From positions 1 to 62,627 of the forward strand of contig PUOX01000070.1 in the NCBI GenBank assembly GCA_003552925.1: a stretch of DNA of 62,627 nucleotides, in the 5' to 3' direction. Positions 13,258 through 45,204 of this stretch are shown one piece after another. The number at the start of each line of letters is the position of its first letter. Position 1 is the first letter of the stretch. The notes beneath the pieces were generated by a model. The model searched no databases. It was not told where the DNA came from and was given only the letters and a program-made list of their open reading frames with translations. The stretch is from Mollicutes bacterium. GTDB taxonomy: Bacteria; Bacillota_I; Bacilli_A; Izemoplasmatales; Izemoplasmataceae. Made by a program: the position numbers and the translations under genes.

Positions 13258-13322
13258 AAAAACTCCCCGCGGAATTGTCGTGGAAACTTAAGGGTTTCCG
13301 GCAACTCACGGGGAGTTTTTTT
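13258..13322. terminator. Bidirectional terminator, DUF624 / HD-GYP
   Basis: Outer stem AAAACTCCCCG / CGGGGAGTTTT enclosing an inner GGAAAC/GTTTCC hairpin, with T-runs on both strands between convergent genes. Confidence 0.8.
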
Positions 13323-15333
13323 ATAGGTCTTTGAACTCAGTGTCGTTTTCCAAGACGTAAACGATTGCATCGACGGCGAGGGGAGAAAACTGTGTGCCCT
13401 TGTAGCGTTGCAACTCCTCGATGATTTCTTCCTTCGAACGTCTTTTTTGATAAGGTCGGTCGGTCGCCATCGTCGCCACCGCGTCGGCCGCGGCGAGTAT
13501 TTGTCCGCCGGTTGAAATGTCATCGCCTTTGAGTCCTTGCGGATAGCCTTGACCGTTCCACCATTCATGGTGGTGGCGAATCATCGTCGCGATAGGTCTC
13601 ATACCCTTGAAGTTTTTCAAGATTTCAAAGCCGTGGTCAACGTGTTGCTTGACGGTTCGATACTCCTCTTGGTCCAGTTTGTCTTCCTTGTTGAGGATGT
13701 CGTAAGGCACGCCCAATTTGCCGATGTCGTGCAACAACCCGGCAAAGTACATGTTTTTGCGCGCATCCCCGCTCAAGTTCAAATGTTCCGCCACACTTTG
13801 TGAGAGCTTTGCGACATCTTCGCTATGTCCTTTGGTGTAACGGTCGTATAAATCAAGCGCTCGCACGAAAGTAAGGATGGTGTCGTCTTTCAACTCCAAA
13901 GCGTAGGATGTGGCGTAGTTCTTTTCAAACAGTTTGTTCAGAATCTTGGTGAAATCGTCCATTCGGCGCATTTCGGATTCGTCAAGCGTCTTTTCGGTAT
14001 AATCCAAGCCGATGACATAGAATACTTGCGGCGTGAACGAAAACACCATATAAGCGCGTGAAAACGTTGAAAGACCATTGGCATGGCTTGAGGCGAACTC
14101 TTCACCGTAGCGGTTTTTCAGGTCTTTATGGACATCGTCATGAAAAATGGTGTCTTCTTTGCGGATGCGGTTTGCGTCGTGCAAGTCGTAGAGGAAGGGA
14201 ATGTTTTTGATGGGATAGTTTCGCGCTTTGACCATGGAGAGTATGCCTTCGTTGTCGAAATAGGAGAAGAAGTGGTCGGCATCAAAAAGCAGCGTGGCGA
14301 TTTCGAAGGTGCGCCGGGCAAAAACGTCACGGCTCTTATTTTGCGTCAAGATGTCTTTGGAAAGCGACAAGAATCCGCGCAAATATTCAAGCATATTGTC
14401 CAGCGCTTCGGTGGTTTCTTTCAGCTCCAGTGTTTGCGAGAAGCGAAGATCCTTGAAGCGTTTCAGCAAGATTGTCGTGATGGTGGAAATATAGACAAAG
14501 GAAAGCAGCGTGATGGACGTGAACAAAAAACTCTCAGCGGTGGTCGCCATCACGTATTGCCACCTAAGCATGACAACGACGACCAACGTCAAAAAGACAA
14601 TCGCTTTATAGGAAAAAAGCAACGCCGCCGTCAAAAAGAACAAGATGAACAAGTATAGATTGCGTGTCAACACCACGGGCACATCCAACAACGAAAACGC
14701 CACAATACCCATCAAAATCAGGCCATAAAACACGCCGTAAAGGAGCATTTTCTTTTGAGGCGCATAATCATCCGGCGTCTTCTCGCGCACAAACACGAGT
14801 TCCGTTAACGGAGCGACGATGATCACCCCGAAAAAATCGCCCACGGACAAAAATGAAAACGGATACTCCTCGGCCAACGCCTCCGGCAGAATCCACAAGG
14901 TCCCCGCATAACGCACAAGTCCGCCCAAAAGCGCCATTAGTGCCGCTAACGTTAAAAGCGAAGCGTTTGCACGGAACAGGTTTTTAATCCCGAAAGAATG
15001 AAGGCCAAGCTTAGAGACGGCATAGTGCAAAACCAAAAGCTGGGCCGAAAAGAGGGCGGTGTAGAGGAAAACGAGCGCCATGCCCGCTGCGGGGTTCGTT
15101 TCGGTGAAAAAAGCCTGGACGAAGGTCGACCCTAAAAAATCCCCCACAAGCAACGAGTAAAAGACCCGCCTGTTGTACACCAGCATTAAGCCGGTTCCAA
15201 ACCCGAGCGCGGGGTTGAATAAGCCAAAGGGCGAGTTTTCATAGGCGAACGTGAAAGAAAGTACGACCATGAAAAAGGTTGTGCAAGCAATCAAGAACGC
15301 TTTCCATTCCCATAGCCAATATCGCTTGTCCAC
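13321..15333 (-). CDS. MASE1-HD-GYP membrane protein (cyclic-di-GMP phosphodiesterase candidate)
   Basis: About 670 residues. The N-terminal half has roughly eight membrane helices in MASE1-like arrangement. A linker of about 180 residues follows, then a full HD-GYP domain: GHSEDVA, LLHDIGKLGVP, KQHVDHGFEIL, RHHHEWWNGQGYPQGL, and AAADAVATMATDRPY. All metal-binding His/Asp positions expected for an active phosphodiesterase are present. Start GTG 15333 chosen because GGGGTG lies 5 bases upstream; ATG 15351 would sit right at the expected transcription start with no leader. No GGDEF cyclase is in the window, so the nucleotide partner is unproven. A second member lies at 28231-30252. Confidence 0.85.
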   Translation of the reverse strand: MDKRYWLWEWKAFLIACTTFFMVVLSFTFAYENSPFGLFNPALGFGTGLMLVYNRRVFYSLLVGDFLGSTFVQAFFTETNPAAGMALVFLYTALFSAQLLVLHYAVSKLGLHSFGIKNLFRANASLLTLAALMALLGGLVRYAGTLWILPEALAEEYPFSFLSVGDFFGVIIVAPLTELVFVREKTPDDYAPQKKMLLYGVFYGLILMGIVAFSLLDVPVVLTRNLYLFILFFLTAALLFSYKAIVFLTLVVVVMLRWQYVMATTAESFLFTSITLLSFVYISTITTILLKRFKDLRFSQTLELKETTEALDNMLEYLRGFLSLSKDILTQNKSRDVFARRTFEIATLLFDADHFFSYFDNEGILSMVKARNYPIKNIPFLYDLHDANRIRKEDTIFHDDVHKDLKNRYGEEFASSHANGLSTFSRAYMVFSFTPQVFYVIGLDYTEKTLDESEMRRMDDFTKILNKLFEKNYATSYALELKDDTILTFVRALDLYDRYTKGHSEDVAKLSQSVAEHLNLSGDARKNMYFAGLLHDIGKLGVPYDILNKEDKLDQEEYRTVKQHVDHGFEILKNFKGMRPIATMIRHHHEWWNGQGYPQGLKGDDISTGGQILAAADAVATMATDRPYQKRRSKEEIIEELQRYKGTQFSPLAVDAIVYVLENDTEFKDL

Positions 15334-15356
15334 AAAGACACCCCATTTCATTTCAT

Positions 15357-15474: not shown

Positions 15475-16305
15475 ATGCGCATACATCGCTTGCGAGCTTT
15501 CAGCGAACACGGACGTGGTGGAAACCCCGCCGGCGTTGTCTTCTCCGAAAGGCCCATGACGCCAAACGCTATGCAAGACATCGCCAAAGAGGTCGGGTTT
15601 TCGGAGACCGCGTTCTTTTTGCCCGCACAAAACGCCCCCTATCGCCTCAGGTTTTTCACCCCTACGGTCGAAGTGCCGCTTTGCGGCCATGCGAGTGTCG
15701 CGGCGTTCAATCTGCTTCGCGACCTGGGAAAAATCGACCCGCAAACCACTCGCTTTGAAACCGGTGCCGGTATTTTGGAAATGCGCATCACAGACAACAA
15801 GGCGTTTTTGGAGCTTGCACCGCCGCAAGTTTTTGACACTCCGTCAATTGAGGACATCGCCGAAATGTTGCGCATCGCTCCGAAACACATCGTCCATCCA
15901 CCGCGCATCGTCTCGACCGGAATCAAAGAACTCTTCGTCGGCGTCGACTCCTTGACGACTTTGGCCCGCCTCGCCCCAAGCAGACTAGCTTTGATTGAAG
16001 CGAGTGAACGTTTGGACATCAAAGGCGTGTACGTTTTCACAGAAGAAACCTTGCATCAAGAAAGCGACGCCCAGGGTCGGAATTTCCTGCCCGCCCTCGG
16101 CATCGACGAAGAAAGCGCGACCGGAACGGCCGCCGGCGCGCTGGCGTACTACTTTTATCGTTTTCTAGAACGAAAAACGTCTTACCGCTTTGAACAAGGC
16201 CATACTATGGACTGTCCATCCGCTTTGCATGTGCTCATTGAAAATAGCCGCGGCCTGCGCATTTTTGTCGGCGGCGAAGCGGACGAGATGGAAGAGGACC
16301 GTTGA
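15475..16305 (+). CDS. PhzF family isomerase-like protein
   Basis: 276 residues, two-lobed PhzF/diaminopimelate-epimerase-like fold. Seen: GGNPAGVVF near the N terminus, EVGFSETAFF with the conserved catalytic Glu, VPLCGHASVAA, and in the second lobe SATGTAAGALAYY. These cover the family's signature positions. Substrate is unknown; no phenazine genes are near, so this is one of the many housekeeping-type PhzF proteins. TATACT at 15435-15440 and GGGGG before ATG serve it. Confidence 0.85.
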   Translation: MRIHRLRAFSEHGRGGNPAGVVFSERPMTPNAMQDIAKEVGFSETAFFLPAQNAPYRLRFFTPTVEVPLCGHASVAAFNLLRDLGKIDPQTTRFETGAGILEMRITDNKAFLELAPPQVFDTPSIEDIAEMLRIAPKHIVHPPRIVSTGIKELFVGVDSLTTLARLAPSRLALIEASERLDIKGVYVFTEETLHQESDAQGRNFLPALGIDEESATGTAAGALAYYFYRFLERKTSYRFEQGHTMDCPSALHVLIENSRGLRIFVGGEADEMEEDR

Positions 16306-16379: not shown

Positions 16380-16399
16380 ACACTCAAGGGGGGAATATC

Positions 16400-19108
16400 A
16401 TGGCTAAAGAAGAGGACAAGCTTCAAGAATTGTTGAACAAGCATTACCGGCCCATTGTGGAAGACCATTTTAAGACGCTCGGCATATTGGACGAAAAATA
16501 TCGCCTATTTCAAAGCAACTACCAAAAGGTTGACGCGTCAATCAAAAAGAACTTGAAGCGGCACCACGAAAACCAAGAGACCTTCGACAAAGAACACGAG
16601 GATGCGGTTCAAAAACTCGACGAACAATACAACATCAACAAGAAAATGCTGGAAAAAGAGAAGAAGGACGCCCAGCAAAAACATGACAAGCGCGTCGAGG
16701 AAATTGACGAATCGCTTGAAAACAAGCGTTCGCTCAACAAGCTCAAACTGCAGAAGGTAAAAGCCAACTACGACTATGCCGTCAAAGAGGCCAACAAAAA
16801 TGTCCTTCAAACCGAAGCCGCGGCCGATCAAAACATTGACGCCGCCACCAGCCGACACAACGAGCATATGGACGAACTTTTAAAAGAGACCAACATCAAA
16901 CATTCGGTCAACGAAAACACCTTGAATCACGCCCGTATAAAATACGATGTCGTGCACGACGAAATCAAAAATACCTACGCAAACAAACGAAAAGAAACCA
17001 AAGAGGAAATGCGAACGTTCGAAAACACGTTCCAAAACGAACTGACCGATTTGGAAAACGAGTACAACGAAGCGCTAAAGCCCATCGATCAAGCGATTGA
17101 CAAGCTGAAATCGGCGCAAGAAAAAGAACTGAAGAGTTTGCGGGACAAACACCAAAAAGCCCTCAACAAATTGGAAAACTACAAAAAAGAAGCGCAAAAA
17201 ATCAACGATAACGCCACCGTCTCCCAACAAGACAAGAAAATCAAAGAGCAAAAAAAGCTCCAAAAAAACGAAATCGAATCGATGCAACAACAGCATCGAC
17301 AAGACCTTCGCGCCAAAGAAGACGAAAAACAAACGACCATCGATGCGTTCGCCGAACGCATGAGCCAGCACAAAGCTCGCGGCATCTCCACGCTGCAACG
17401 GTTCCTGGAAACGATAGAGGAACACCGCATGCAAGAGTCGATCGGAATCGAAGAGCAAAACAACATCTTCAACCAAACCTTCGCCCGCTTCCAAAAAGAC
17501 AAGAAATCGATTCGGCTCGACTATGATTTGCAAAACGTCAACTTCAACCGCGCCCTTGATGAAGCGAAGGCGGAAAACGAACATATGAAAGCCGTCTCCC
17601 AACCCGAAAGCGACCTCAAAGAAAACGAAGCGAAATTTCACATGAACGCGGAAACGAACGAACTGAACAAAGCGCTCAAAGTCGCCCAAGCCAAGCACAA
17701 ACGCGATGTGGACCTTGCCGAAAATGACTTAGCGCTGACGATGAAGACGTTTGACAAAAAGGCGAAAACCTTACAATACCAACTCGAACACGACTGCGAA
17801 AACGAAGAAATTGAAAGAGCGCTCAAGTATTATCACCTCGATTACGAAACGGAATCGATGATATTGGACCATCACATCGTGCACAGCAAAAACTACGCCG
17901 CGCTCAAAAACGACGAATTCAAGACCGTCAAACCCGATTTCATCCATGAAATCGACAAGCGCGCCGAGTTGAAAATCTCTTCCTACGAAGAAATGCTTGA
18001 AGACGCCAAGCGCGACCATGACAACATCGTGGAAAAAATCTATTCGACTTACGACAAAGAACGGTCGATTTACGTCAAAAACCATCGCGAACTGCTCGAC
18101 GAACATCGCAAGACCCTCTCCAAACTCAAACAAAAACAAGACGCCGAGCGCAAACGCTACGAAGAAAAAATCGACACTTTGGACGCCAAAAAAGACCGAA
18201 AAACCATCGAGCAAATGGAACGCGAACTCGAGCAAAAACAAAACGAACACACCGAGGCGTACCGGGCCAAGGAAGAAGAACTCGAAAAAAGGCGTTCGAT
18301 CTACAAGCGCATCTTAGACACCGTCGAAGCGAAATGCAACCAGTCGATCGAAGAGGCGGAAACGTTGCTTTACCATATCACCGACCAGTTGAACGGCGCC
18401 ATCAAAGAGACCCAAGAGCGCGCCGAAACCGAAAAGCAGATGCTTGCGGATATGAGTTCGGAAATCGGACTCCGCACCTCCTTGTTTTGGTCTTTTCAAG
18501 AAGACCGCCAGACCTCGACGCTCGACGAGGCGAAAAACTATCTAAACACGCGCATCCATCGCATCAAGACCCGCAAGACCAAGAATGAAAACACGCTCTC
18601 CGATCGTTTGGAAGCCTTGAACACCGAATACACCGCGTTCAAGAAAAACTATGAAAGCAAACACGAAACCATCAATCATGACTACGAAAAAGAGCTGACC
18701 TCCATCGAACGCGAGAAGGAAGAGATGTACAACGAGCACCATCGTACCTATCAAGAGGAAAAACGCAATTTGGATCTCTACATCCTCAAACTGAAAAAGC
18801 GCCATAGCGAAACGATGGAATCTTTCAAAGCCAAAGCCCAGGAAGCGGAGAGACAGTATTTCTCCGAAAAAGAACGCAATGAAGAATTGTATCAATCCGA
18901 ACTCGATCGCCTTCAAAAGCAACTCGAAGAAGAGAAGGCGAACAAGCGAAAACGATTCGAAAAAACCAAAGAATCCTACGACGACCGCGCCGGAATGCTT
19001 TCCAACGTCATGCGGAAAGACCCCATCGAAAGACTGCGTCCGCAGGATGTGGCCAAAATCGCCAGGATTCTTACCGGCGATGAGGATGTCGAAAGCGTCG
19101 TCCGCTAA
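16400..19108 (+). CDS. Giant headless coiled-coil protein, unknown function
   Basis: 902 residues, almost entirely Lys/Glu/Gln/Asn-rich alpha-helical coiled coil. No Walker motif, hinge, signal peptide or membrane segment is seen, so it is neither SMC nor RecN nor SbcC. A break in helical character occurs near residues 465-515 (YYHLDYETESMILDHHIVHS region), with the two halves of similar length, and a small possibly globular C terminus follows (RLRPQDVAKIARILTGDED). Two cysteines only. Start ATG 16400 has GGGGGGAA 6 bases upstream; a longer frame to 16190 runs over phzF and is rejected. Only 28 bases separate it from cardiolipin synthase, so the two are probably co-transcribed. A structural (cytoskeletal or membrane-scaffold) role is inference only. 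Confidence 0.8.
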   Translation: MAKEEDKLQELLNKHYRPIVEDHFKTLGILDEKYRLFQSNYQKVDASIKKNLKRHHENQETFDKEHEDAVQKLDEQYNINKKMLEKEKKDAQQKHDKRVEEIDESLENKRSLNKLKLQKVKANYDYAVKEANKNVLQTEAAADQNIDAATSRHNEHMDELLKETNIKHSVNENTLNHARIKYDVVHDEIKNTYANKRKETKEEMRTFENTFQNELTDLENEYNEALKPIDQAIDKLKSAQEKELKSLRDKHQKALNKLENYKKEAQKINDNATVSQQDKKIKEQKKLQKNEIESMQQQHRQDLRAKEDEKQTTIDAFAERMSQHKARGISTLQRFLETIEEHRMQESIGIEEQNNIFNQTFARFQKDKKSIRLDYDLQNVNFNRALDEAKAENEHMKAVSQPESDLKENEAKFHMNAETNELNKALKVAQAKHKRDVDLAENDLALTMKTFDKKAKTLQYQLEHDCENEEIERALKYYHLDYETESMILDHHIVHSKNYAALKNDEFKTVKPDFIHEIDKRAELKISSYEEMLEDAKRDHDNIVEKIYSTYDKERSIYVKNHRELLDEHRKTLSKLKQKQDAERKRYEEKIDTLDAKKDRKTIEQMERELEQKQNEHTEAYRAKEEELEKRRSIYKRILDTVEAKCNQSIEEAETLLYHITDQLNGAIKETQERAETEKQMLADMSSEIGLRTSLFWSFQEDRQTSTLDEAKNYLNTRIHRIKTRKTKNENTLSDRLEALNTEYTAFKKNYESKHETINHDYEKELTSIEREKEEMYNEHHRTYQEEKRNLDLYILKLKKRHSETMESFKAKAQEAERQYFSEKERNEELYQSELDRLQKQLEEEKANKRKRFEKTKESYDDRAGMLSNVMRKDPIERLRPQDVAKIARILTGDEDVESVVR

Positions 19109-19136: not shown

Positions 19137-20681
19137 ATGGAAAAGAACATACGCAAAATCCTAATGATTGTACTCGTTATCGCAATCGCGGTTTCACTGC
19201 GTTTTGCGCTTGAATTCACATTTACCCTTATCTGGGATTTTTTCGACCTCTCCACAGCACTCGGTTACATCGTGCGTACGTTTTTTGTCGCCTTGTTCGT
19301 ATTGATTTGGCTATCAATCACGCTTCGAAGCGAAAACCCCCATCAAAAACTGCCCTGGCTTTTGCTGCTTACGTTTGAGCCGGTGGTCGGCATTACCCTG
19401 TTTTTGACGTTCGGCCGAAACTTCAAAAACAGTTTTCGCTACCGCAACCGCCCCTTGATGCACTCCGACGGCTACATCACCCGCGAGAAAAGGCCCCATG
19501 AAGTGGAGTTCAAGTTGTTCGGCTACGACGACAACACCCAAGAGCTCTTCCATGTCGCCCACCATCTTTCCCATCATCAACCGTTTTTGAACAACACGTC
19601 CATCGACGTGTTGAAAAACGGTGAAACGTTTTACCCGGATTTGAAAAGCGCTTTGAAACGCGCCGAAAAGTTCATTCTTTTCGAGTTTTTCATCGTACGC
19701 GCCGATCGGCGTGGTCGGGAAATCGTCGACATTTTAATGCGCAAAGCGGAAGAAGGCGTCGACGTCAAAATGATCATCGACGGACTTGGCAGCGCTCGAT
19801 TGAGCCGCTCCTACCTCCGGAAAATCCGCAACTCCAAGATTGATTTCATCGTGAACGACAAAATCTATTTCCCCTTGTTCAACACCCGCATCAACTATCG
19901 AAACCACCGAAAAATCGTGGTTGTCGACGGGCACACTGCCTATACGGGCGGTATGAACATCGCCAACGAATACGACAACACCATCGACCATCCCAACTAT
20001 TTCCGCGACACACAGCTCAAACTCCGCGGAAAAGCCGTGATGTCGCTCACGGCCCTCTTTTTCAAAGACTACTATTACAATACGAACGATTTTCTGGACG
20101 ATATTTTTTACTATCCCGAGTACAATGCGAAAAGCAACAACGTCGTGCAGGTGTTGCAGTCGGGGCCGGACTCCGATGCGGCGACCATCCGCAATTTGTA
20201 TTTGAAAATGATATTGATGGCGAAACGATCCATCAAAATCATGACCCCCTACATGGCCCTTGACCAAGAAACCCTCACCGCGCTTTCCATCGCCGCTCAA
20301 TCGGGTATCGACGTCGAAATCATCATCCCCGGCGAACCCGACAAATACCTCGTCTACAAAGTTACGAAATCCTTTGTGAGCAACCTGTTGAACCACAACA
20401 TAAAAATCTATCAGTACCAAAAAGGGTTTTGCCACGCCAAAGTCTTCATCGTCGACGACAAAATCGCCTCGGTCGGCAGCTACAATCTCGACAACCGTAG
20501 TGCCGTGATTGATTTCGAGGTGACGATGCTTATGGCCGGCGACCCTTTGCCGCGGCTGGTCGACGATTTTGAACAGGACAAGAAGGATTCTACGCTGATC
20601 GACCCGGAAGAATGGGCCAATAGGCCGCTCATTATCCGTTTGGTCGAAGGCGTTATGAGCATCTTCTCACCCATTATTTAA
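19137..20681 (+). CDS. cls: Cardiolipin synthase
   Basis: Phospholipase-D superfamily enzyme that joins two phosphatidylglycerols into cardiolipin at the membrane. 514 residues. Three hydrophobic N-terminal segments are followed by two PLD catalytic motifs: NHRKIVVVDG...GGMN and CHAKVFIVDDKIASVGSYN, with both HKD sites intact. RBS AAAGGACGG precedes ATG. Follows the coiled-coil gene by 28 bases and abuts the ABC transporter genes, whose AGGAGG starts at the final base of its stop codon. Confidence 0.93.
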   Translation: MEKNIRKILMIVLVIAIAVSLRFALEFTFTLIWDFFDLSTALGYIVRTFFVALFVLIWLSITLRSENPHQKLPWLLLLTFEPVVGITLFLTFGRNFKNSFRYRNRPLMHSDGYITREKRPHEVEFKLFGYDDNTQELFHVAHHLSHHQPFLNNTSIDVLKNGETFYPDLKSALKRAEKFILFEFFIVRADRRGREIVDILMRKAEEGVDVKMIIDGLGSARLSRSYLRKIRNSKIDFIVNDKIYFPLFNTRINYRNHRKIVVVDGHTAYTGGMNIANEYDNTIDHPNYFRDTQLKLRGKAVMSLTALFFKDYYYNTNDFLDDIFYYPEYNAKSNNVVQVLQSGPDSDAATIRNLYLKMILMAKRSIKIMTPYMALDQETLTALSIAAQSGIDVEIIIPGEPDKYLVYKVTKSFVSNLLNHNIKIYQYQKGFCHAKVFIVDDKIASVGSYNLDNRSAVIDFEVTMLMAGDPLPRLVDDFEQDKKDSTLIDPEEWANRPLIIRLVEGVMSIFSPII

Positions 20682-20692
20682 GGAGGATGGCC

Positions 20693-21613
20693 ATGATCAG
20701 TGTGAAAGGATTGACCAAAGATTACGAGAAAACGCGAGCGCTTGACGGGATTGATTTTCAGGTCAGCGAAGGCGCGTTTTTTGCGCTTCTCGGCCCCAAC
20801 GGCGCCGGGAAGAGCACCACGATTGAAATCATCTCGACGCTCAAAGGCAAGAGTGCGGGCGACGTCGCCATCAACGGTTCAGTGCTCGGCAAAGACGACG
20901 ACGCCATCCGCAAGGCGATTGGCGTGGTGTTTCAATATTCGACGCTCGACGAAGACCTCACCGCTTATGAGAATCTCATGTTGCGCGGACTTTTTTATAC
21001 CGACGACAAGGCCGCCATCCAAAAACGCATTGAAACTTTGCAGGAGTTTTTGGGATTTGAAAGCTATGTGAACCGCCGCATCAAAACGCTTTCCGGCGGG
21101 CAAAAGCGCAAAATCGACATCGCCAGGGCGCTGTTGCATGAGCCGAGAATCCTTTTGCTTGATGAACCGACGACCGGATTGGACCCGCAAAGCCGTGAAA
21201 ATATATGGGAACTTGTGCTTGAACTCAAACGAAAAACCAACATGACCATCGTGCTGACGACGCATTACATGGAAGAAGTCTCCGATTGCGACCAGGTCAT
21301 CATATTGCATGAAGGGAAAATCCGCGCCGAAGATTCGGCCGAAGCGTTGCGCGCGAAACACGCCACCGACAAGCTGCGGGCGCTGCCCAAGGACAATCGG
21401 TTGAAAGAAGCCCTGTCTCGTGAGAACATCAAGTTCTCCACCGTGCAAAACACGCTGCACATCCCTTTGAAGGATTCGTTCGAAGGGGTTCAATACGTAG
21501 AACGCTTCAAAGATTTGATCGAAACCTTTGAAATCGTCAAGGGTACCATGGACGACGTGTTCTTAAACATCACCGGAAGAAAGTTGAGTGATTACGATGA
21601 GCGCCTTAATTAA
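20693..21613 (+). CDS. ABC-2 type exporter, ATP-binding protein
   Basis: 306 residues. Walker A GPNGAGKST, signature LSGGQKRK, Walker B ILLLDEPTTGLDP and the switch His (TTHYMEE) are all present, followed by a C-terminal extension typical of DrrA/CcmA-like drug or lipid exporters. Start ATG 20693 is 6 bases after AGGAGG; ATG 20687 abuts it. Its permease overlaps the 3' end. Substrate unknown; the link with cardiolipin synthase suggests a lipid or a membrane-active compound (inference). Confidence 0.92.
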   Translation: MISVKGLTKDYEKTRALDGIDFQVSEGAFFALLGPNGAGKSTTIEIISTLKGKSAGDVAINGSVLGKDDDAIRKAIGVVFQYSTLDEDLTAYENLMLRGLFYTDDKAAIQKRIETLQEFLGFESYVNRRIKTLSGGQKRKIDIARALLHEPRILLLDEPTTGLDPQSRENIWELVLELKRKTNMTIVLTTHYMEEVSDCDQVIILHEGKIRAEDSAEALRAKHATDKLRALPKDNRLKEALSRENIKFSTVQNTLHIPLKDSFEGVQYVERFKDLIETFEIVKGTMDDVFLNITGRKLSDYDERLN

Positions 21614-22460
21614 ACGGCACATCCTTTGTTTCCTCAGGGACAGGTGGTCGGTGTTCTTCTCGTTTTTGAGCGTATTGATCATTTTGATGCTGTTTGCGTT
21701 TTTCCTCGGCGCCATGCACGAAACCACCGTTCCCGAAGCGTTGCGGGGCACGGACGAGGGTAACCATCTTGTCTACAGCTGGCTTTTCTCCGGTGTGCTC
21801 ATGGTGTCGACGGTGACGGTGCCTTTGGGCTTTTTGCACTTCATGGTGAAAGACCGCGCCACGCAAAGCATCAACGACTTTTACGTCACGCCTCTCTCGC
21901 GCACGAAAATAGTCTTCAGCTACCTAGTGGCCGCGATTCTTGTCTCGACGGCGCTGGGTGTTGTGAACTTGCTGTTGGGCCAGGTCATCGTGTATCTGAA
22001 CGCCAGCACGTTTTTGCCTCTGGCTTCGTTCCTTCAAGTGCTCGGCTTGATTGTTCTATCTTCGACGCTTTTTTCGTCGCTCTTTTACTTTGTGGTCAGC
22101 TATCTCAAATCCTTGAACGCCCACGGAACCCTTTCGACGCTAGTGGGGACGCTGATCGGTTTTGTGACCGGAGTGTATGTTCCGGTTGCGAACCTTGGCA
22201 ACACCCTGACCAACATCCTGGCCGCCTTTCCGCCTTTGCAGATGGCCGGACTCTTCCGCAGGGTGTATATGGACAAGGCGCTCCACGATGTGTTTGCCGG
22301 CGCCCCGGATGCCATGACGCGCTATATGGAGAACTTTGGCGTCGACGTCGTGTTTGCGGGCCGTACGTTTTCAACGTTTGAACTTCTCGTGTTTTCCGCG
22401 TTTTGGATCGTGTTGTTCGTTTTGCTTTCTGTTTTGCGTTTGCGTCGTTTCAAAGTCTGA
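21597..22460 (+). CDS. ABC-2 type exporter, permease
   Basis: About 287 residues with six hydrophobic segments in ABC2_membrane layout; partner of the upstream ATPase, with which it overlaps by 17 bases (translational coupling). Contains the family feature of a long amphipathic N terminus (LIKRHILCFLRDRW) before the first membrane helix. The start could also be GTG 21588; ATG 21597 is chosen because the GGAAGAAAG stretch is better spaced. The operon from the coiled-coil gene probably ends here; the next gene has its own promoter. Confidence 0.85.
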   Translation: MSALIKRHILCFLRDRWSVFFSFLSVLIILMLFAFFLGAMHETTVPEALRGTDEGNHLVYSWLFSGVLMVSTVTVPLGFLHFMVKDRATQSINDFYVTPLSRTKIVFSYLVAAILVSTALGVVNLLLGQVIVYLNASTFLPLASFLQVLGLIVLSSTLFSSLFYFVVSYLKSLNAHGTLSTLVGTLIGFVTGVYVPVANLGNTLTNILAAFPPLQMAGLFRRVYMDKALHDVFAGAPDAMTRYMENFGVDVVFAGRTFSTFELLVFSAFWIVLFVLLSVLRLRRFKV

Positions 22461-23096: not shown

Positions 23097-23951
23097 ATGA
23101 AGAAAATAGGTGTTGTCGCTTGCACCAACGCTTGTCTGGATTATTTTGACCATGATTACGACATTCGCATTTTACGCTCCATCATCCATTTGGGAGAAGA
23201 AGAATACTTGGACCATGTCGAGTTGAAAGCCGAAGAGTTCTACCGGCGTTTGCGCAGCGATTCCAAACTCTTCCCGAGAACGTCGCAGCCGCCGACGGCG
23301 GAAATGATCAAAACGTACGAAGAGATGTTGGCCGTAGGCTACACCGACGTCATCGTCGTCACCATATCGTCGCATATGAGCGGAATTTATAGCGCTGCCC
23401 AAATCGCGGCGAAAAGTGTGCCCGATTTGAACGTGCACGTCTTCGATTCGAAATCCGTCGCCTACCCGCAAGCCAAGATGGCGCTGCTGGCCGCAGAAAT
23501 GGCTAAGAAAGGCGAAGACGTCAAGGCCATTCTTGAAGCGTTAGAGGACATCCGAAGCCACAACCACATTTATTTTGCGGTCGACACTTTGGCGTATTTG
23601 GTCAAAAACGGACGGCTCTCCAACGCGCAGGGATTCATGGGCAGCATGTTGAAGATCAAACCGCTGCTTCATATTTCCAAAGAAGGCAAAGTCGAGAACA
23701 TCGAAAAGATTCGCACTTTCAAAAAAGCGGTGAAACGCGTGGTGGACATGTATCTTGAAGAAACGAAGGGCAAGGATGTTTCTCCGTTCATCTGCCACGC
23801 CCACAATAAAGAAGTGCGCGATGAAATCGAAGCGGCGTTGAAAGAGGCCGACCCGAACTTGAAAGAAGTTTTCAGCATGCCGCTGACACCGGCCGTGGGC
23901 GCTCACGCGGGGCCCGGGGCCATCGGTCTCGGCTACATTCAAAACCGTTAA
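23097..23951 (+). CDS. DegV family fatty-acid-binding protein 1
   Basis: 284 residues. DegV/FakB proteins hold a fatty acid for phosphorylation by FakA. Seen: the lipid-pocket region SQPPTAEMIKTYEEM, TISSHMSGIY, LVKNGRLSNAQGFMGSMLKIKPLL, and the C-terminal PAVGAHAGPGAIGLGY, all family hallmarks. The N terminus is unusual: instead of the usual TDSxxD it reads ACTNACLDYFDHDYDI. Two paralogues occur at 42203 and 44332. No fakA is in the window. A terminator follows, then the PadR-HAAS unit. Confidence 0.85.
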   Translation: MKKIGVVACTNACLDYFDHDYDIRILRSIIHLGEEEYLDHVELKAEEFYRRLRSDSKLFPRTSQPPTAEMIKTYEEMLAVGYTDVIVVTISSHMSGIYSAAQIAAKSVPDLNVHVFDSKSVAYPQAKMALLAAEMAKKGEDVKAILEALEDIRSHNHIYFAVDTLAYLVKNGRLSNAQGFMGSMLKIKPLLHISKEGKVENIEKIRTFKKAVKRVVDMYLEETKGKDVSPFICHAHNKEVRDEIEAALKEADPNLKEVFSMPLTPAVGAHAGPGAIGLGYIQNR

Positions 23952-28230: not shown

Positions 28231-30252
28231 TTATTCGTAGAGAAAATCGATGACGCCCTCTTCAATGCAGCGTATGGCCGCATCGGCGCATTTCGGGTCG
28301 AACTGCGCCCCTTTTTCTTGGTAAAGCTCATCGATGATCTCTTCTTTGGTCATCTTTGGAGCGTAAGACTGCTTCCTACCCATGGAGGCGATGGCTTCGG
28401 CAATGGCCAAAATGTACGCTTCATCGGGTATTTCTTCCTTGGCAAGCCCTTCGGGGTAGCCTTGACCGTCGTAGCGCTCATGATGGCATTTGACGTAGAA
28501 AGCGATGTCGTTTAGGGCTCTTGATTGCTTCAAGAGATCGCTGCCGAGCTGCGCATGGTTTTTCATCTTCTCAAATTCGCTGACGCTGTAGCGTCCGCGT
28601 TTTCGAACAATCTCTCCGTCCACGCCGATTTTCCCGATGTCATGAGCGATGCCCGCCCAGTAGAGCTCGTTGATGGTTTCTTGGTCCAAAAACATTGCGG
28701 TGGCGATTTCGCTGGCGATGTAGGCGACGTCTTCGCTGTGTCTTTTGATGCTTTCGTCGAACAAGCCGATGGTGGTCAAAAGACTGGAAACCATGCTCCG
28801 CTTGAGTTCGTTGTGCTTTTGGATGGACGACTCGGCTTCAAAGAAACTGTTCATCATCAAGTTGAGCGTCTGAAAATAGTCGAGAATGTATGCATCGAAC
28901 GTGTATTCGCTTCCTTCGCGAATGTCAAAAGACATTTCACAGACTATGTCCGGAGCGATTCTGACGCTCATCATCACGCTTTCTTTGATGGCGGGGTTGT
29001 GTTGTCTGTATTCATCGTAGCGTTCGCCCATGGAACGTCTCAAGCGGTTTTCCATGTCGGTCAAGTGCTGGGGTTTTTCCAAGTTCGCTTCCCAGTCGTC
29101 GATGTTGAAGTGCAGCGAATTCAAGTAGTCGAGATCGTGACCGATGGTGTCGATATAATGGACTTGGTCGTTTTCAAGCATCATGCAGCTTCCGTAATCG
29201 ATGCGGTTAAAGAGGCGGAAAATCATCCGAAAAATGCGCGAAGCGACGGCGTCGACCGAATCGGAATCTTTGACGGACGTGCTTTCGGCAAAGGAAAAGA
29301 GGCTTTCGGTCGAAGCGACAAGTTGTTCCAAGCGTTCTCGCCTCAACTCCAAATCGCGCTGTTCTTGGTTTAGCGAGAAGAGAATGTAGCGTATGGAGAG
29401 GAAGACAAAGGTAATGACGGTCAAAAAGACGTTGATTTCAAGAAAGTATTCGATGTATCGCGCTTCCTGCAAAAACGGGGGAAACGCGGTCATGACCGAA
29501 AGGAAAATCAAAGAGCCGATGACAAGCGAGCGATAAGGGAAGTAAAACGCGGCCAAAATGGCTAAGGGGAAGAACAAGAACTTATGCGTCCCATAGCCAA
29601 TTAGCGGAATGCGGTGGTTGAAGAAAAGAATTGTGAACAAAACAAGCACAAAATAGAAAAGCAATTCCTCTTTGAACGTACGGGTTGCATATTCCTTGCC
29701 GTCAAGATACAACGCCAGCGCAAAAGGCACGCCAAAATACACAAGTCCGAAAAAGTCGCCTCCGGCCCACACAAACACGCTGTTCCAAAACGCTTCCGTT
29801 TCCAAAGCGCTTAAGAGCATTATGGAAATATTGCCGGCCAAAGACGCCAAAATCGAAATCCCGATAAACACGCTCAAAAAGAGGGTCGTATCACGAGGGG
29901 TGAAGCGCCAACTCACATTCAACCGAAGCAAGCCCCACGTCGCAATCCAAAGGATGAGAGAGGTTGACGCCGCGGAGACAAGCGACTGCGCAAAGATGCG
30001 AAAGCCCGTGGTGGGCTGAATGAACGCATGAGAGAGCAAGTACCCGAAAAATAGACCAAGAAAGACGCTTCCCAAAACACGCCTTTCATGGTAGACGATC
30101 AAAAACGCAAACGCAAATCCAATCGCCGGCCAAACCAAACTTGCGTCGAATTCGCTGATGGTGAACGCGTGACCGAGCGGTATCGTCATTCCGCATAGAA
30201 AAAACGCAAGCAACTCTTTTGAGTATGTTTCAATCCATTTCGGCAAACGCAT
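28231..30252 (-). CDS. MASE1-HD-GYP membrane protein 2, altered second half
   Basis: 673 residues, same layout as the protein at 13321-15333: about eight helices, a long linker and an HD-GYP domain. Retained: RHSEDVA, IAHDIGKIGV, KNHAQLGSDLL and CHHERYDGQGYPEGL. Altered: where active HD-GYP proteins usually have ADAxD...RPY, this one reads AIAEAIASMGRKQSYA, losing the Asp and the Arg-Pro pair. It may therefore have reduced or different phosphodiesterase activity, or act as a sensor (inference). AGGTGG precedes the ATG on the minus strand. The pair suggests gene duplication. Confidence 0.83.
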   Translation of the reverse strand: MRLPKWIETYSKELLAFFLCGMTIPLGHAFTISEFDASLVWPAIGFAFAFLIVYHERRVLGSVFLGLFFGYLLSHAFIQPTTGFRIFAQSLVSAASTSLILWIATWGLLRLNVSWRFTPRDTTLFLSVFIGISILASLAGNISIMLLSALETEAFWNSVFVWAGGDFFGLVYFGVPFALALYLDGKEYATRTFKEELLFYFVLVLFTILFFNHRIPLIGYGTHKFLFFPLAILAAFYFPYRSLVIGSLIFLSVMTAFPPFLQEARYIEYFLEINVFLTVITFVFLSIRYILFSLNQEQRDLELRRERLEQLVASTESLFSFAESTSVKDSDSVDAVASRIFRMIFRLFNRIDYGSCMMLENDQVHYIDTIGHDLDYLNSLHFNIDDWEANLEKPQHLTDMENRLRRSMGERYDEYRQHNPAIKESVMMSVRIAPDIVCEMSFDIREGSEYTFDAYILDYFQTLNLMMNSFFEAESSIQKHNELKRSMVSSLLTTIGLFDESIKRHSEDVAYIASEIATAMFLDQETINELYWAGIAHDIGKIGVDGEIVRKRGRYSVSEFEKMKNHAQLGSDLLKQSRALNDIAFYVKCHHERYDGQGYPEGLAKEEIPDEAYILAIAEAIASMGRKQSYAPKMTKEEIIDELYQEKGAQFDPKCADAAIRCIEEGVIDFLYE

Positions 30253-42157: not shown

Positions 42158-42202
42158 TTTCACAAATAAACTTTGAATATCAAAACATTTGTGGAGGAAA
42201 AC

Positions 42203-43060
42203 ATGAAGAAGATTGGTTTTGTAGTATGCGGCAACTCCGGCATCGATTATTTGGACCATGACTACGACATTCGCGTCATTCGTTCCACCTTGCTTTTCGA
42301 CGACAAAGAATACACCGACTTCGTCGACATCAAAGCGGAAGACTTTTACAAACAACTCAAAGAAAACCCGAGTTTGCACCCGACCACCGCGCAAACGGCG
42401 ACCGGGGTAATCTTGGAGACGTACGAAGATTTGAAAAAAGACGGCTACACCGACATCATCGTCGTCACCATCTCTTCAAAACTGAGCGGCACCTACGAAG
42501 GCGCAAAAATGGCCGCAAGCATGATTGAGGGCGTCAACGTTCACGTTTTCGATTCGCTTTCGCTTTCGTACAACGAAGCGTATATGATTTTGCGCGCTGC
42601 AGAACTGGCGAAAGAAGGCAAGGACATTCCTGAAATCATAGACGAGCTCACTTGGATTCGCGAACATCAAGGCCTTTACGTTTCAGTCGACACGCTCAAG
42701 TTTTTGGTCAAAAACGGACGTTTGAGCGGCGCAAGCGGCATGATCGGCTCGTTTTTGAAAATCAAGCCGATGCTGCAACTTACACGCGAGGGCCGCATTG
42801 AGCCGGTTGAAAAGATTCGCACACGCAAAAAGGCCATCGAGCGCATGATCGAGAAATTCCTAGACGATTTTGAAGACACGAAGAACATGGAAGTCTTTGT
42901 CATTCACTCCAACGCCCACGACGTCGTCGACTACGTCAAAGGACGATTGAGGAAAGAAAGATCCGATTTCGGCGATATCAAGGATTATCCGTTAACCCCT
43001 GTTGTGGGGGCGCACGCCGGCCCCGGCGCGCTCGCCATCGGATGGATTTTGAAAAGATAA
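42203..43060 (+). CDS. DegV family fatty-acid-binding protein 2
   Basis: 285 residues. Motifs: TTAQTATGVILETYEDL, TISSKLSGTYEGAKMA, LVKNGRLSGASGMIGSFLKIKPML, and PVVGAHAGPGALAIGW. As in paralogue 1 the N terminus reads VVCGNSGIDYLDHDYDIRVI rather than the common TDSxxD start. ATG 42203 has GGAGGA upstream. Followed by a MarR-PadR-HAAS-DegV set; more similar by eye to DegV-1 than to DegV-3. Confidence 0.87.
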   Translation: MKKIGFVVCGNSGIDYLDHDYDIRVIRSTLLFDDKEYTDFVDIKAEDFYKQLKENPSLHPTTAQTATGVILETYEDLKKDGYTDIIVVTISSKLSGTYEGAKMAASMIEGVNVHVFDSLSLSYNEAYMILRAAELAKEGKDIPEIIDELTWIREHQGLYVSVDTLKFLVKNGRLSGASGMIGSFLKIKPMLQLTREGRIEPVEKIRTRKKAIERMIEKFLDDFEDTKNMEVFVIHSNAHDVVDYVKGRLRKERSDFGDIKDYPLTPVVGAHAGPGALAIGWILKR

Positions 43061-43904: not shown

Positions 43905-44335
43905 AAAGCATCGAACAATTCATAAAACGCGTCTTCAAGCACAATCCCCCGAAAGACCAAAGCATCGAACAACTGGTGGAGATGCTTGAAGAAAAAGTCG
44001 AAGACTTGAAAGAAGAAGGGTACGACGAAGAGGACGCCATCGACAAAACCATCAAAGAATTCGGCGACTTAGAGGATTACGACCTGCCCGACATGGAAAA
44101 GGAAAAAAGGCGGCACATGCGCATCAAGACGATCAAGCACCATCGAAACACGCTGCTTTTTTCCGGGATTTCCTCGGCGTTGATCATCGCCTTGTCGCTC
44201 TTTTTGAATTTCGTGCTGTTTCGCGACCTCGGCGTATTGTCCGAGCCTTGGTCGCCGGTTGTCGCCATCGGCGTGCTTTTTTGGCCGCTTAGCCTATTAT
44301 ACAAACTATTAAATAAAAAGGGAGATATGTCATGA
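43901..44335 (+). CDS. HAAS-domain membrane protein 2 (short)
   Basis: 144 residues. Residues 1-70 are a helical HAAS/DUF1700-type domain (VEMLEEKVEDLKEEGYDEEDAI, IKEFGDLEDYDLPD), followed by two or three membrane helices (TLLFSGISSALIIALSLFL; WSPVVAIGVLFWPLSLLYKLL). ATG 43901 inside the PadR stop (ATGA), GGAGGG upstream; the frame extends to 43853 but lacks a site. Overlaps DegV-3 by 4 bases, so the protein is in translational lockstep with both neighbours. Confidence 0.8.
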   Translation: MKSIEQFIKRVFKHNPPKDQSIEQLVEMLEEKVEDLKEEGYDEEDAIDKTIKEFGDLEDYDLPDMEKEKRRHMRIKTIKHHRNTLLFSGISSALIIALSLFLNFVLFRDLGVLSEPWSPVVAIGVLFWPLSLLYKLLNKKGDMS

Positions 44336-45204
44336 AAAAAACCGCAGTCATCGCTGTCAGCACAGGATGCTTGGATTATCTTGACATCAAGCACGACAAC
44401 CTCTTCATCATCCGTTGCAAGATCATCATGGGGGACAAGACCTACAACGATTACGTAGACCTAAACGCCGATACCTTTTACGACACTATCAAAAACGACT
44501 CCAGCGTCATCCCGACTTCTTCGATGCCCTCGCTTGGGGAAATCACCGAAACGTTCGAGGAGATTGAAAAGGCCGGGTACGAAGAGGTCATCGTCAACAC
44601 CATCTCCAGCGCGCTAAGCGGCACGTTCCAAACTTGCCAAATGGCGAAAAACTCTTACGAAGGAAAGCTGGACATCCACCTTGTGGACACGAAAAACGCC
44701 GCGATCAGCGAAGGGTTCATCTCGATTGAGGCCTTGAGGCTGATCGAAGAAGGCAAGACCGCCAAAGAGATTGTGCCCTACCTTGAGAAGCTCTCGCTTT
44801 GCCGTACGCAGTATTTCATGGTCGACAATTTGCGCCTTTTGGTCAAAAACGGACGTTTGAGTGGCGCGAGCGGATTGCTTGGCCGCATGTTTAAAATCAA
44901 GCCGATTTTGGAAGTCAACGACGAAGGCAAAATCGTGCCATTTGAAAAAGTGCGCACCCAAAAAAAGTCGCTCGAACGCATGGCGGACCATATCGTTGAG
45001 CAACTGAAGAGCCTCGACAACTTCGTCATCACCTACAACACCAGCGACAACACCGAAGGTTTCGATTACGTCAAAAAGCGCATCGAAGCGCTTTACCCCA
45101 AAGTCAAATCCTACGCCGCGCCGATTACGCCTGTCATTGGCGCCCACACCGGACACGGCACGGTCGGTATCGCTTATTTCGACTTAGACAAAGCTAAAGC
45201 GTGA
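44332..45204 (+). CDS. DegV family fatty-acid-binding protein 3
   Basis: 290 residues; the most diverged of the three. TSSMPSLGEITETFEEI, TISSALSGTFQTC, LVKNGRLSGASGLLGRMFKIKPIL and PVIGAHTGHGTVGIAYF. N terminus IAVSTGCLDYLDIKHDNLFII lacks the common TDSxxD, and its Cys content is higher. ATGA-coupled to the HAAS gene. Probably presents a fatty acid of different length or saturation from paralogues 1 and 2 (inference). A terminator follows. Confidence 0.87.
   Translation: MKKTAVIAVSTGCLDYLDIKHDNLFIIRCKIIMGDKTYNDYVDLNADTFYDTIKNDSSVIPTSSMPSLGEITETFEEIEKAGYEEVIVNTISSALSGTFQTCQMAKNSYEGKLDIHLVDTKNAAISEGFISIEALRLIEEGKTAKEIVPYLEKLSLCRTQYFMVDNLRLLVKNGRLSGASGLLGRMFKIKPILEVNDEGKIVPFEKVRTQKKSLERMADHIVEQLKSLDNFVITYNTSDNTEGFDYVKKRIEALYPKVKSYAAPITPVIGAHTGHGTVGIAYFDLDKAKA

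Follow-up and report, generated by a model that had tools for sequence, protein, structure and literature searches.

A Conserved Straight-Helix Rod Protein Encoded beside Cardiolipin Synthase in Wall-Less Bacilli, a Candidate Cytoskeletal or Membrane-Scaffold Element

A 902-residue protein encoded directly upstream of a cardiolipin synthase gene (cls) in a Mollicutes bacterium is a conserved protein outside any known family, and we conclude with high confidence that it is a straight, hendecad-type amphipathic helix and not a heptad coiled coil. The best explanation, which is held tentatively, is that this protein (the rod) forms a soluble, cytoplasmic, antiparallel structure that provides cells lacking a wall with a cytoskeleton or a scaffold for the membrane. 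The DNA analyzed (the window) comprises 62,627 nucleotides of contig PUOX01000070.1 (assembly GCA_003552925.1).

The Rod Gene and Its Product

The gene extends on the forward strand from the ATG at 16400 to the stop codon ending at 19108, so that the coordinates and length given in the original prediction are exact. A strong ribosome-binding site, AAGGGGGG (16386–16393, +), lies 6 bases before the ATG; the reading frame has no stop back to 16190, and the homologs share the Met at 16400 as their start. In the comparison with the homolog of G004, a genome of the same genus (77% identity), the differences fall 161/97/401 on the three codon positions. Because substitutions are concentrated on third positions, with dN of 0.15 versus dS of 1.95 (dN/dS about 0.08), the rod is a constrained protein, and its ORF is a genuine protein gene under purifying selection. 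The product (pI 6.1, charge about −15, GRAVY −1.33, 7 glycines) has no signal or membrane helix, its best 19-residue hydropathy being 0.55.

No family was matched in Pfam, NCBIfam, PHROGs, or PADLOC, in agreement with the earlier statement that the family was not recognized. The absence of ATPase heads and hinge, also claimed there, agrees with the lack of a Walker A motif in the sequence, of a Pfam SMC/RecN match, and of any hinge or hook domain in domain searches or in the all-helical AlphaFold2 model. Clear SMC/RecN homology, which the original prediction had named as grounds for abandoning it, was not found, and an SMC, RecN, or Rad50 protein with an overlooked head is rejected, as no head domain with Walker A/B and signature motifs is present. 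Searches for a phage tail or defense protein gave nothing convincing, and this identity was rejected as well. An RNA element search of the rod region found none.

Distribution of the Rod

With 1.28 Mb at 73% completeness, the window's genome falls within the Izemoplasma group, whose members are wall-less (PMC8397711, PMC10868615). A profile search located the rod in 40 of the 49 genomes of its own family, the Izemoplasmataceae-type wall-less bacteria, and in no genome from the other two families sampled in the same order. Across about 296 sampled genomes of the class, no full-length homolog occurs outside the family, and the class-wide scan gave only short coil-like matches there, in two families (f9 and f21). 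The first, narrower search had returned 20 of 61 genomes and missed diverged versions in several genera; these versions (13–16% identity, 877–884 aa) were spotted in initially negative genera by their position before cls. A single-sequence scan of GTDB contigs for a rod homolog found none, and a cls scan of GTDB contigs found a rod beside cls in 5 of 80, all of them Izimaplasma-type loci.

The homologs measure 877–907 aa overall and form two sets, of 897–907 and 877–884 aa. They are collinear, with identities from 77% down to 13% and almost no internal gaps; MAFFT may favor ungapped alignment of coils, and the total lengths of the two sets agree with the gap-poor picture. The reduced genomes G009, G024, and G036 have neither rod nor cls, and the presence of the two genes is associated (Fisher p 1e-4, a value inflated by their shared position and by gaps in the MAGs).

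Gene Neighborhood

The cls gene (19137–20681, +) encodes a 514 aa protein that passes the TIGR04265 cut-off and starts 28 bases after the rod stop codon, with no terminator-like site in this gap. The proposed co-transcription of the two genes is further supported by their linkage, since cls is directly downstream of the rod on the same strand in 32 of the 37 determinable genomes, a count that leaves out three rod-bearing genomes with the locus at contig ends. The gaps are mostly −1 to 95 bases, with one of 152. The five exceptions are G017 and G084 (incomplete MAGs in which cls was not found), G083 and G031 (two genes inserted), and G015 (rod elsewhere).

Most genera without MreB share the gene order htpG, amidohydrolase, HD-GYP (on the other strand), phzF, rod, cls, ABC ATPase, ABC permease, pduO-like, and degV. 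The window accordingly contains an HD-GYP-type (HD_5) membrane protein as the conserved divergent neighbor (13321–15351, −), a PhzF-like enzyme, the upstream neighbor in most MreB-less relatives (15475–16305, +), and the ABC transporter ATPase (20687–21613, +) and ABC-2-type permease (21588–22460, +) of the conserved block. Three DegV-like proteins (23097–23951, 42173–43060, and 44332–45204) were recognized in the window by eye and by mutual similarity, and the one at 23097–23951 belongs to the conserved rod-cls block. The ORF at 28231–30252 (−) looks like another multi-pass membrane protein, similar in size to the HD_5 protein.

Other members of the family encode MreB, and in seven genomes (G011, G013, G015, G027, G033, G082, and G083) three mreB genes, an EAL gene, and the rod are contiguous; the MreB assignments have Pfam MreB_Mbl E values of 1e-108 and below and the EAL assignment one of 4e-43. 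Through this arrangement the rod is adjacent to known cytoskeletal genes, and in G015 it stays with mreB though it is away from cls. The mreB-EAL-rod order is consistent across contig ends in G031 and G089, the mreB cluster is elsewhere and unlinked to the rod in G021 and G035, and no call was made for G016 and G085. The operon of mreB paralogs and an EAL-domain phosphodiesterase was observed at L095:161–3671, L119:1924–6517, L120:1929–6490, and L122:6688–11289, with three mreB genes where the stretch is complete. The HD_5 membrane protein of the window and the EAL proteins of its relatives suggest c-di-GMP signaling in wall-less bacteria.

MreB was not detected in the window's genome, in its genus, or in several other genera, and most rod-bearing genomes are without it. 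MreB is accordingly not an obligatory partner of the rod. The neighborhood of cls and mreB makes the rod a plausible candidate for a cytoskeletal or membrane-scaffold role, while gene neighborhood is weak evidence of mechanism.

Predicted Structure and Helical Periodicity

AlphaFold2, run on a six-sequence alignment, predicts the rod as essentially all helix (mean pLDDT 79.5, pTM 0.36), with breaks at residues 140–156, 268–270, 399, 593–599, and 874–880. A fragment model adds breaks at 400–405 and 497–504 and gives residues 406–496 as one helix. The pTM values of the models (0.36 and 0.27) mean that the arrangement of the helices is not fixed by the prediction.

The sequence has two strongly periodic arms: the N-terminal one (residues about 1–330; 16400–17389, +) peaks at 3.63 with a power of 32 versus 8.4 for the 99th percentile of shuffles, and the C-terminal one (residues 505–873; 17912–19018, +) peaks at 3.64 with a power of 40. 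The helical middle (residues about 340–500; 17417–17899, +), which includes P402, is not periodic, and the apolar stripe vanishes there. A conserved NYxALK motif (residues 497–504; 17888–17911, +) coincides with the break of the fragment model, and the best conserved motif, S-x-E-E-x-x-T-L-L-x-H-x-x-D, spans residues 649–663 (18344–18388, +). The C-terminal tail (residues 874–902; 19019–19105, +) is present in g1-type orthologs and missing in the diverged set. The original prediction of two helical halves separated by a break at residues 465–515 thus holds for the two arms, and the break at 497–504 falls inside that interval, though in the fragment model only; the non-periodic middle is wider and begins earlier.

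The hydrophobic period of the window's rod is 3.65, and values of 3.61–3.65, most of them 3.64–3.65, were found in 26 of 26 homologs, with low power at 3.5. Alignment profiles reach a power of 27–50, whereas the 99th percentile of shuffles is about 9. One turn takes 3.63 residues in an undistorted helix and 3.67 in hendecads (PMC9858780), and comparison with these values indicates that the arms are nearly straight. The period stays, over long stretches, in the range of about 3.63–3.67 that marks hendecad-type straight helices. The protein is consequently a coiled coil, as had been proposed, only in the wide sense of the term, and the classical heptad form with its period of 3.5 is rejected. 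A superperiod of 51 residues is a feature of Scy and FilP. It was not recovered in the rod, whose autocorrelation tops at 29, then 11 and 18. These values are only mildly above the simulated expectation, and no superperiod is claimed.

The apolar stripe covers about 100 degrees of the helix, and the rest of the surface is evenly mixed in charge. Aromatic residues, His, and Asn/Gln occupy the center of the stripe, Ala is scarce, and the edges are not enriched in lysine. It looks like a stripe for packing and not like a lipid face.

Mirror Symmetry and Chain Pairing

The breaks at residues 268–270 (17201–17209, +; D270 is invariant in the widest alignment) and 594–599 (18179–18196, +) are accompanied by phase slips and are mirror partners about an axis near residue 433. 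Slips of the same sign occur near 270 and 600 in both rod sets. For the arms only, the mirror match of amphipathic strength gave r 0.70 (p 0.019), and r 0.70 (p 0.024) in the diverged set, two values that are not independent, as the sets are homologous; the first test, with the middle included, had given p 0.16 and <0.001. By this indirect test, interruptions are matched at positions i and const−i, as in antiparallel rods. The mirrored interruptions favor antiparallel pairing, and it is inferred from the sequences, with moderate confidence, that the chains pair in this manner.

The rod would then be a soluble, cytoplasmic, fully helical protein with two long arms around a non-periodic helical middle. 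Most simply, two chains would form an antiparallel homodimer with a length of up to about 130 nm, or such dimers would be bundled, and in an extended pair each phase slip would face its partner slip. Since the prediction places no turn at the axis, this dimer is favored over an intramolecular hairpin, which would be less likely. The assembly would most likely provide a structural scaffold whose length is fixed, a cytoskeleton that resembles intermediate filaments and is located at the membrane. It would be produced along with cardiolipin synthase and, where relatives have MreB, also with the three MreB paralogs and the EAL-domain phosphodiesterase.

Longer Rod Proteins in Relatives

A second giant rod of about 1160–1180 aa is encoded divergently from ruvB-queA in relatives (L210:3682–7170, L211:2365–5904, L212:3035–6538, L214:2444–5923, L129:3812–7351, and L100:2493–6005). 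Its period is 3.62 (power 63), and its two arms flank a middle without periodicity; the interruptions, at 309 and 766, mirror each other (p 0.0025). The rod profile matches it with E values of 6e-21 to 1e-9, scores that coil composition can inflate, and it is probably a paralog of the window's rod. A search of the window's own genome did not find it, an absence that carries no weight in a genome 73% complete. One longer rod (L211:2443–5901) has a weak PADLOC match (E 1.4e-5) to the tail portion of ZorA models, which probably reflects shared periodicity rather than homology.

A third conserved coil protein of about 945–963 aa, with less regular periodicity, adjoins the second rod (L210:767–3658, L211:5920–8799, L212:148–3018, L213:2985–5873, L214:5969–8851, and L129:961–3798); the L211 protein had no NCBIfam match.

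Alternative Explanations

Three other readings were weighed against the antiparallel scaffold. The rod shares an 11-residue-type periodicity with membrane-lying amphipathic helices and is in an operon with cls, and its profile weakly matches apolipoproteins A-IV, A-I, and E (E 4.5e-5; Pfam Apolipoprotein, E 0.005, for one family member). It might hence be an apolipoprotein-, perilipin-, or synuclein-like protein whose stripe lies on, coats, or shapes a cardiolipin-rich membrane. However, shared periodicity alone could yield these matches, and neither the wide apolar face nor the interface lysines of apolipoproteins A-I, A-IV, and E were found in this acidic, very hydrophilic, bacterial cytoplasmic protein, whose narrow stripe is centered on His and Asn/Gln. 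This reading is judged quite improbable. As for the roles in the original prediction (filament, membrane scaffold, or cytoskeletal element), the mreB-mreB-mreB-EAL-rod order in seven genomes lends the proposal independent support; the helical wheel does not resemble that of a lipid-lying helix. The arms could instead fold back within one chain as a headless SMC-like hairpin, a DNA- or chromosome-associated spacer. SMC-type proteins (MukB, condensin, and Wadjet JetC) also have long helical arms with paired interruptions and are the best Foldseek matches of the rod model, and the mirror symmetry and a probable paralog adjoining ruvB point the same way; yet the TM-scores are 0.08–0.15, and we take such model matches to mean "long helices" and no more. 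The axis at about 433 has no turn, Gly, or Pro and falls within the predicted single helix, head and hinge domains and Pfam matches are missing, and the arms of SMC proteins are heptad-based, with a period of 3.5 versus 3.64 here, all of which makes the hairpin unlikely.

A parallel dimer that assembles end to end, as in FilP, Scy, or crescentin, would be the third possibility. The Streptomyces proteins FilP and Scy are, like the rod, long, cytoplasmic, hendecad-rich, and without catalytic domains, and FilP forms filaments (PMC9858780, PMC6599971). They are DivIVA-like, whereas no DivIVA-like N-terminal domain was detected among 20 rod members searched, and no bacterial intermediate-filament-like protein occurs among the PDB matches listed for the rod profile. 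The cores of these hendecad dimers are Ala-rich (PMC9858780), in contrast to the aromatic/His, Ala-poor center of the rod stripe, and two arms with mirrored interruptions would not be expected in a parallel dimer. FilP and Scy occur in Actinobacteria, the rod in wall-less Bacilli, with links to cls and mreB. We consider this reading about as improbable as the membrane-lying helix.

The antiparallel scaffold may be extended to the longer proteins, although this is more doubtful: the giant straight-helix antiparallel rods (about 880–900, 1170, and perhaps about 960 aa) would form a new superfamily acting as an internal skeleton of the wall-less family, with ties to cardiolipin domains and, in the ancestral state, to a system of three MreBs lost in some lineages that kept the rod.

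Significance

With the rod, the packing of straight, hendecad-type helices would gain a long natural example. We know of no counterpart of it in Spiroplasma. Like the Izemoplasma relatives, Spiroplasma is wall-less with several MreB paralogs (PMC10279915), whereas here most rod-bearing genomes are without MreB. Outside Spiroplasma and Mycoplasma, the size, shape, and membrane stability of free-living wall-less bacteria are largely unexplained. Xianfuyuplasma zrk13 is a cultured member of the group suitable for study (PMC8397711), and a family-wide orphan rod of fixed length, with genetic links to MreB and the synthesis of cardiolipin, offers a concrete candidate for the keeping of size, shape, and a stable membrane in these bacteria.
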